A stretch of 64,000 nt of DNA from Stanieria sp. NIES-3757 (GTDB lineage: Bacteria > Cyanobacteriota > Cyanobacteriia > Cyanobacteriales > Xenococcaceae), in the NCBI GenBank assembly GCA_002355455.1, contig AP017375.1, forward strand, positions 806,001 to 870,000. The letters are read 5' to 3'. Under the pieces are notes generated by a model. It was given only the letters and a program-made list of their open reading frames with translations, had not been told where the DNA came from and searched no databases. Below, in pieces: positions 12,273-40,560 of the stretch. Each line of letters opens with the position of its first letter. Position 1 is the first letter of the stretch. The translations under genes were made by a program, and so were the position numbers.

Positions 12273-12914
12273 ATGGATATCAGCGATTTTAGGGAAGAAT
12301 ATCTTCGAGAAGGTTTAAGACGCGAACAACTAGCTCAAGACCCTTTTCAACAATTTGAACTTTGGTTTCAACAAGCTTGTACTGTCAATTTACCAGAACC
12401 AAATGCCATGTGTTTAGCAACAGCAACAGCTTCAGGTTATCCCTCCCAACGCATGGTGTTGTTGAAATATTTTGACCGTCAGGGATTTGTTTTTTTTACC
12501 AACTATGAAAGCAAAAAAGCTCACCAAATCGAATCAAATCCCCAAGTATCATTGTTATTTTTCTGGATTGCCTTAGAACGTCAGGTACAAATTTCTGGAA
12601 CTGCTGCGAAAATTTCTACGGCTGAATCCTTAAAATATTTTGCTACCCGTCCCAGAGGGAGTCAAATTGGAGCTTGGTGTTCGCAACAAAGTACAGTAAT
12701 CTCTTCTCGCCAAATGCTGGAGATGAAATTTGATGAGATCAAACGCAAGTTTCACGACCGAGAAATACCTCTACCTTCAGCTTGGGGTGGTTATCGAGTT
12801 GTGCCTAATAGTTTTGAATTTTGGCAAGGTAGACCTAATCGATTACACGATCGCTTTTTATATTCTCGCTTAAATGCTGAATCAAGTTGGGAAATTCAAA
12901 GGTTAGCTCCCTGA
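12273..12914 (+). CDS. pdxH: Pyridoxamine/pyridoxine 5'-phosphate oxidase PdxH
   Basis: 213 residues, the usual length. FMN- and substrate-binding blocks are clear: RMVLLKYFDRQGFVFFTNY, RPRGSQIGAWCSQQS and the C-terminal WQGRPNRLHDRFLYSR. It makes pyridoxal 5'-phosphate from pyridoxine or pyridoxamine phosphate with FMN and oxygen in the cytosol (vitamin B6 salvage and synthesis). It lies between lon and a small DOPA-dioxygenase-like gene on the same strand with gaps of 143 and 39 bases. Nothing unusual. Confidence 0.94.
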   Translation: MDISDFREEYLREGLRREQLAQDPFQQFELWFQQACTVNLPEPNAMCLATATASGYPSQRMVLLKYFDRQGFVFFTNYESKKAHQIESNPQVSLLFFWIALERQVQISGTAAKISTAESLKYFATRPRGSQIGAWCSQQSTVISSRQMLEMKFDEIKRKFHDREIPLPSAWGGYRVVPNSFEFWQGRPNRLHDRFLYSRLNAESSWEIQRLAP

Positions 12915-26388: not shown

Positions 26389-26466
26389 GTACAGACGTGT
26401 CTTGGTGAGCGTTCCTTTGCGCCCGCAGGTGGCGCAGGGTCTCACCGCAACATGTTACGTCTGTAC
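26389..26466. repeat. 28-base palindrome split by a 50-base GC-rich hairpin
   Basis: GTACAGACGT (26389-26398) and AACATGTTACGTCTGTAC (26449-26466) join into a perfect 28-base palindrome if the 50 bases between are removed. Those 50 bases are GC-rich and themselves fold (GGTGAG...CTCACC outside, TGCGCC...GGCGCA inside). An intact palindrome with the same core is at 40539-40560. Confidence 0.8.
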
Positions 26467-26480
26467 ACCGGTTATCAGGA

Positions 26481-26528
26481 AGTAATAAGTAATAAGTAAT
26501 AAGTAATAAGTAATAAGTAATAAGTAAT
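26481..26528. repeat. Heptamer tandem repeat, AGTAATA about seven units
   Basis: Six exact copies of AGTAATA followed by a seventh with a changed last base, immediately after the split palindrome. Same 7-base period as the other intergenic repeats here. Confidence 0.85.
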
Positions 26529-40538: not shown

Positions 40539-40560
40539 GAGACGTAACATGTTACGTCTC
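40539..40560. repeat. 22-base perfect palindrome between regulator and kinase genes
   Basis: GAGACGTAACA followed by its exact reverse complement, within the 62-base gap of the two-component operon. The same core is found split at 26389-26466, so this is a dispersed repeat. Just after it, TGATAAC occurs twice in tandem (40564-40577), another heptamer repeat abutting the GTG start of the kinase. Confidence 0.8.

Follow-up and report, generated by a model that had tools for sequence, protein, structure and literature searches.

The window spans 64,000 nt (G000:C1:806001-870000) in a genome of 5.46 Mb with cyanobacterial relatives and carries on its plus strand a 78-bp composite repeat (26389..26466) in which a hairpin interrupts a palindrome. 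Recognized by sequence reading, script and genome search, it is one of eight full genomic copies and is separated by 18 bp from the stop codon of an upstream ruvA-like ORF, between converging genes. The host palindrome has its left arm, GTACAGACGT (consensus GTAGAGACGT), at 26389..26398 (plus strand) and its core and right arm, AACATGTTACGTCTGTAC, at 26449..26466 (plus strand), both delimited by sequence reading and script. Between them lies a 50-nt hairpin element (26399..26448, plus strand) of the form GTCTT-GGTGAG...CTCACC-GC, which belongs to a 50/51-nt family (model R1). Its lower stem is formed by GGTGAG (26404..26409, plus strand) and CTCACC (26441..26446, plus strand), the two sides being linked by covariation. 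Just downstream of the composite is a heptamer tandem array, (AAGTAAT)n (26480..26528, plus strand), a typical setting of the composite and palindrome repeats; heptamer arrays, e.g. AGTTATC, often flank both.

Direct reading and a script agree that the 10 and 18 bases on either side of the 50-base GC-rich hairpin (26389-26398 and 26449-26466) form a perfect 28-nt palindrome when joined, as a previous sequence-only reading had stated. That reading also pointed to an intact relative at 40539. The segment 40539..40560 (unstranded) is indeed a perfect, simple 22-bp palindrome without a hairpin, GAGACGTAACATGTTACGTCTC, with a 20-nt core, AGACGTAACATGTTACGTCT, common to the palindrome of the window composite, and it is one of several dozen genomic relatives. 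Palindrome and hairpin are both beyond chance, since the 18-nt palindrome core has two matches in the window versus 0.03 expected, the hairpin covariance model has one match there at E 3.6e-15, the composite has eight genomic copies and its single-strand fold has a z of -4.0. The 28-bp palindrome is perfect only incidentally in the window copy, as the outer arms are perfect in only two of the eight copies.

The position of the composite past the ruvA-like ORF and its good fold would suit a functional RNA structure or a terminator that ends the upstream gene, but we regard this as extremely improbable. A terminator role for the window composite was rejected because a terminator-like site was absent. 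Rfam contained no matching family, its best hit being chance-level (E 0.99, far below the gathering score), conservation of the site does not extend to the sister species, and the hairpin family occurs in coding genes, in IS elements and in itself.

By genome search, the eight full copies of the composite are scattered over the genome, together with a ninth, truncated copy. Mean pairwise identity among the 78-nt copies is 95.8%, an average that leaves out the 77-nt copy L020, and the consensus is GTAGAGACGT-[50]-AACATGTTACGTCTGTAC, with consensus arms GTAGAGACGT and ACGTCTGTAC. The simple palindrome is commoner. Within three mismatches of GACGTAACATGTTACGTC there are 56 places in the genome, composite halves included, compared to none for the reversed control at the same threshold, and free palindromes have variant cores, e.g. 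AGCATGCT and AATATATT. Searching the genome with model R1, with matches taken at E up to 1, gave 16 matches, of which eight lie in composites, seven lie outside palindromes and one is marginal. Since palindromes without the hairpin and hairpins without the palindrome are found in one genome, palindrome and hairpin are two separate repeat families. The free palindromes and the seven free hairpins thereby uphold the sequence-only reading in its view of two families, one lying within the other at a precise point. Relatives of this genome hold many more free hairpins, with boundaries identical to those of the composite's hairpin. The opposite outcome, in which every copy would be composite and the whole a single repeat, is not what was found, as palindromes and hairpins occur apart.

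If the 78-bp unit were nonetheless a single family, with simple palindromes as its deletion products, it would be expected that the hairpin variant of the window always accompanies the palindrome, and in its own genome it does, being found only inside the composite (8/8 full copies). This reading is very unlikely, since hairpins that share these boundaries but stand alone already go far toward refuting it. In the same genome and in relatives, further family members lie outside palindromes and have the same ends, and simple palindromes occur with many cores that are absent from the composite, e.g. AGCATGCT and TTCCATGGAA.

Alignment of 31 distinct hairpin variants required a gap in the loop only. 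The fold comprises a lower stem of 6-7 bp, an asymmetric internal loop, an upper stem and a variable loop. Covariation in the stems amounts to 23 double-changed cells versus 6.2 in shuffles (0/500 shuffles as high), and one lower-stem pair alternates between A-T, C-G and T-A. Matches to R1 are present in 26 of the 27 genomes of the bacterial family, at 2-139 copies each (97 in G013, 90 in G006), and, under stricter filters, in 12 of 386 sampled genomes of the phylum, from nine genera. A pattern scan for the hairpin in one genome per species returned 67 stretches, nearly all cyanobacterial; a stretch from a proteobacterial bin is without the family's ends and is probably a chance match. The only match in a plasmid collection was from Chondrocystis sp. 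NIES-4102.

The exact unit can be read from genes that exist in a filled and an empty form. Alignments of such gene DNA differ by exactly 51 nt each (DUF29 versus the sister species, P450, TnpB and an IS gene), a gain of 17 codons, and the YoeB gene of the window's genome aligns with a solved YoeB with a clean 17-residue gap. This YoeB-type toxin gene, half of a toxin-antitoxin pair, has the hairpin (L241, G000:C1:3848778-3848828) in frame, the 17 extra residues following the conserved YLYWQ. In-frame hairpins also lie in ORFs matching CobN, PKS, NRPS, an N6 methylase, a DUF3598 protein and several transposases, and a single cytochrome P450 gene in G013 (L142/L382) contains two, one of them diverged. 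Reading frames are kept because the hairpin is 51 nt long. Open frames are not enriched in the hairpins, shuffles being more open (4.79 vs 4.05 of 6 frames), and selection for open frames was rejected on that basis.

Beyond coding genes, hairpins are found in IS genes, in other hairpin copies and in heptamer arrays (Xenococcus sp. PCC 7305 and Cyanothece sp. BG0011). Across 42 distinct sites, where the search design itself fixed the ends TCTTGG and CACCGC, T stands two bases before TCTTGG in 34 and directly after CACCGC in 33, the remaining nine having A there and none G or C. No multi-base target duplication fits the hairpin flanks, and the filled/empty pairs permit 1 nt at most. The earlier observation of no obvious target duplication holds at the window site, where the net gain is 50. 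At other sites the gain is 51 nt instead, which would fit a 1-nt T duplication. At the palindrome and at one heptamer array (L147), the gain looks like 50 nt followed by A.

It could be argued that the hairpin cannot move by itself and is carried along by converted repeats, viral genomes and IS elements. Many hairpins are indeed located in multi-copy IS genes. In G013, at least four copies exist of an ISL3-type transposase gene that contains the hairpin, which indicates that these IS copies multiplied after the insertion. The Xenococcus hairpins lie within a longer repeat having common flanks, and a viral contig (IMGVR_UViG_3300045998_000148) contains three head-to-tail hairpin arrays (L343:1399-1515, 2114-2267 and 12698-12870) with an exact 51-nt period, within open frames. 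Such passive carriage is nevertheless unlikely as the explanation of the family. The hairpin keeps constant ends at the 42 distinct flanks, and there are clean 51-nt gains in single-copy genes (DUF29, P450 and YoeB) with no IS around the insert.

The sister species (G001) has 11 composites. Those that were read carry a third, 45-nt hairpin in the loop of the hairpin block, which is found in none of the eight full composites of the window's genome; the composite exists in lineage-specific versions. The 45-nt hairpin consists of GAGCCAGCGCGGTCTTGGGGTATCCCCAAGTGGAGCGACTGGC plus ends and is located at L141, L159, L169 and L220-L228 of G001, and a motif resembling it is present at L160. Junctions and orientation are identical in all composites of both species. 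The sequence-only reading had recommended comparing filled and empty sites between strains. In a comparison with the sister species, three orthologous sites pair a palindrome with a composite, and no clean empty site was found there for the window copy. Two of the three have a plain palindrome in one species and a composite in the other (L021/L174 and L019/L173), and the third is in the opposite direction (L222/L344). The palindrome cores differ at all three, so these pairs are not strict before-and-after states. A further orthologous site has the composite in both species (L024/L178), and at another (L020/L180) the sister species has an empty heptamer array.

From these sequence comparisons, it is probable (roughly 0.75) that the hairpin entered a palindrome once and that copying thereafter involved the 78-bp composite as a whole, which makes the window copy a daughter. 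A single entry is the most likely history because the composite's variant differs from those of the free hairpins in its genome, and because the composites share junctions and orientation. The composite has plainly been amplified, and always with one junction. It follows that the window site does not serve as evidence for a mobile hairpin of ~50 bases, as the sequence-only reading had taken it, since its variant is found only in composites and the junctions are the same in all. That the 50-nt hairpin jumped separately into each palindrome, as into a hot spot, is quite improbable. All composites have one hairpin variant, one orientation and one junction, the free hairpins of the genome being other variants, and the data lean toward the composite hairpins forming one clade apart from the free ones. 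In favor of separate jumps, TTCCATGGAA palindromes of the sister species (G001:C1:1833623-1833660 and several more) have a different insert of ~19 nt, GCTTCGCACCCTTCGGGAA, near the same point. From this insert, palindromes may attract small hairpins.

Under the single-entry account, the 50/51-nt bulged hairpin would be a very small non-autonomous element with the ends 5' NTCTT and 3' GC, followed by T/A. It would have inserted a single time, in an ancestor of the genus, into the dispersed short palindrome GTAGAGACGT^AACATGTTACGTCTCTAC, and the 78-bp product, retaining the outer arms of the palindrome, would then have spread as a unit, partly to sites that have a simple palindrome in the sister species and partly to heptamer arrays. 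Most probably a putative trans-acting enzyme reads the folded strand, as single-stranded DNA or RNA, and in this way would fix the exact unit. Composites, in turn, may spread via conversion of resident palindromes through their arms, or via whatever moves the palindromes. The differing cores at orthologous sites suggest replacement of resident palindromes via the arms, not plain insertion. A counterpoint to this account is the palindrome's net gain of 50 rather than 51 nt. Each of the six genomes tested has Y1 transposases, and since a hairpin match was found at only 4 of 30 such loci, a link between these enzymes and hairpin movement is tentative at most. A bolder reading, somewhat less likely than not, has a fixed 51-nt (17-codon) hairpin carried by a mechanism of its own into many kinds of DNA, including genes whose frames remain unbroken, with small palindromes acting as landing sites where nesting up to three deep turns composites into new elements. 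If such a mechanism is real, the hairpin would be among the smallest mobile elements known.

The hairpin family bears on how DNA units of ~50 nt can move with exact ends. Its filled and empty sites, 51-nt arrays, covariation, high copy numbers (up to 139 in a genome) and nesting to three levels make the unit, the target preference and the order of events readable. A literature search of partial coverage, with the SDR1-8 sequences outside the comparison, returned no report of a 50/51-nt hairpin family.

Small dispersed repeats (SDR) of cyanobacteria (Elhai et al. 2008, Genome Res. 18:1484) are reportedly 21-27 nt long and occur in the Nostoc group. In reported features, the hairpin family resembles them in its very small size, its hairpin with compensatory changes, its many copies, and its location within heptamer arrays, other small elements and its own copies. 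It differs from the reported features in its length (50/51 vs 21-27 nt), in its hosts, which are Xenococcaceae-type and further unicellular cyanobacteria and not the Nostoc group, and in having in-frame copies in genes. Like MITEs, the hairpin is non-autonomous, multi-copy and sometimes fused into genes, although it is much shorter and its target duplication is one base at most. REP/REPIN elements, which are associated with RAYT transposases (PMC3116915) and include the GTAG and CGTC families (PMC3733652), are likewise short bulged hairpins with unpaired conserved ends for which insertion into palindromes is documented, and REP dimers inside palindromes have already been recorded (PMC3733652). 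Unlike them, our hairpins end in NTCTT and GC rather than GTAG/CGTC, appear to have no consistent Y1 transposase neighbor and often lie within genes, and host palindromes without an insert are common in the window's genome. Rickettsia palindromic elements (~150 bp; Ogata et al. 2000, reviewed in PMC10969869) are also small palindromic elements found in frame in unrelated protein genes (PMC10969869), and the hairpin, which adds 17-residue segments to open genes, is a cyanobacterial parallel to them. It is set apart by its 51 nt versus ~150 bp, its cyanobacterial host, and its use of several frames and both strands with no single conserved peptide. Because size, range and coding features differ from those reported for SDR and for the Rickettsia palindromic elements, the hairpin family is treated here as a variant of these kinds and is placed in neither group.
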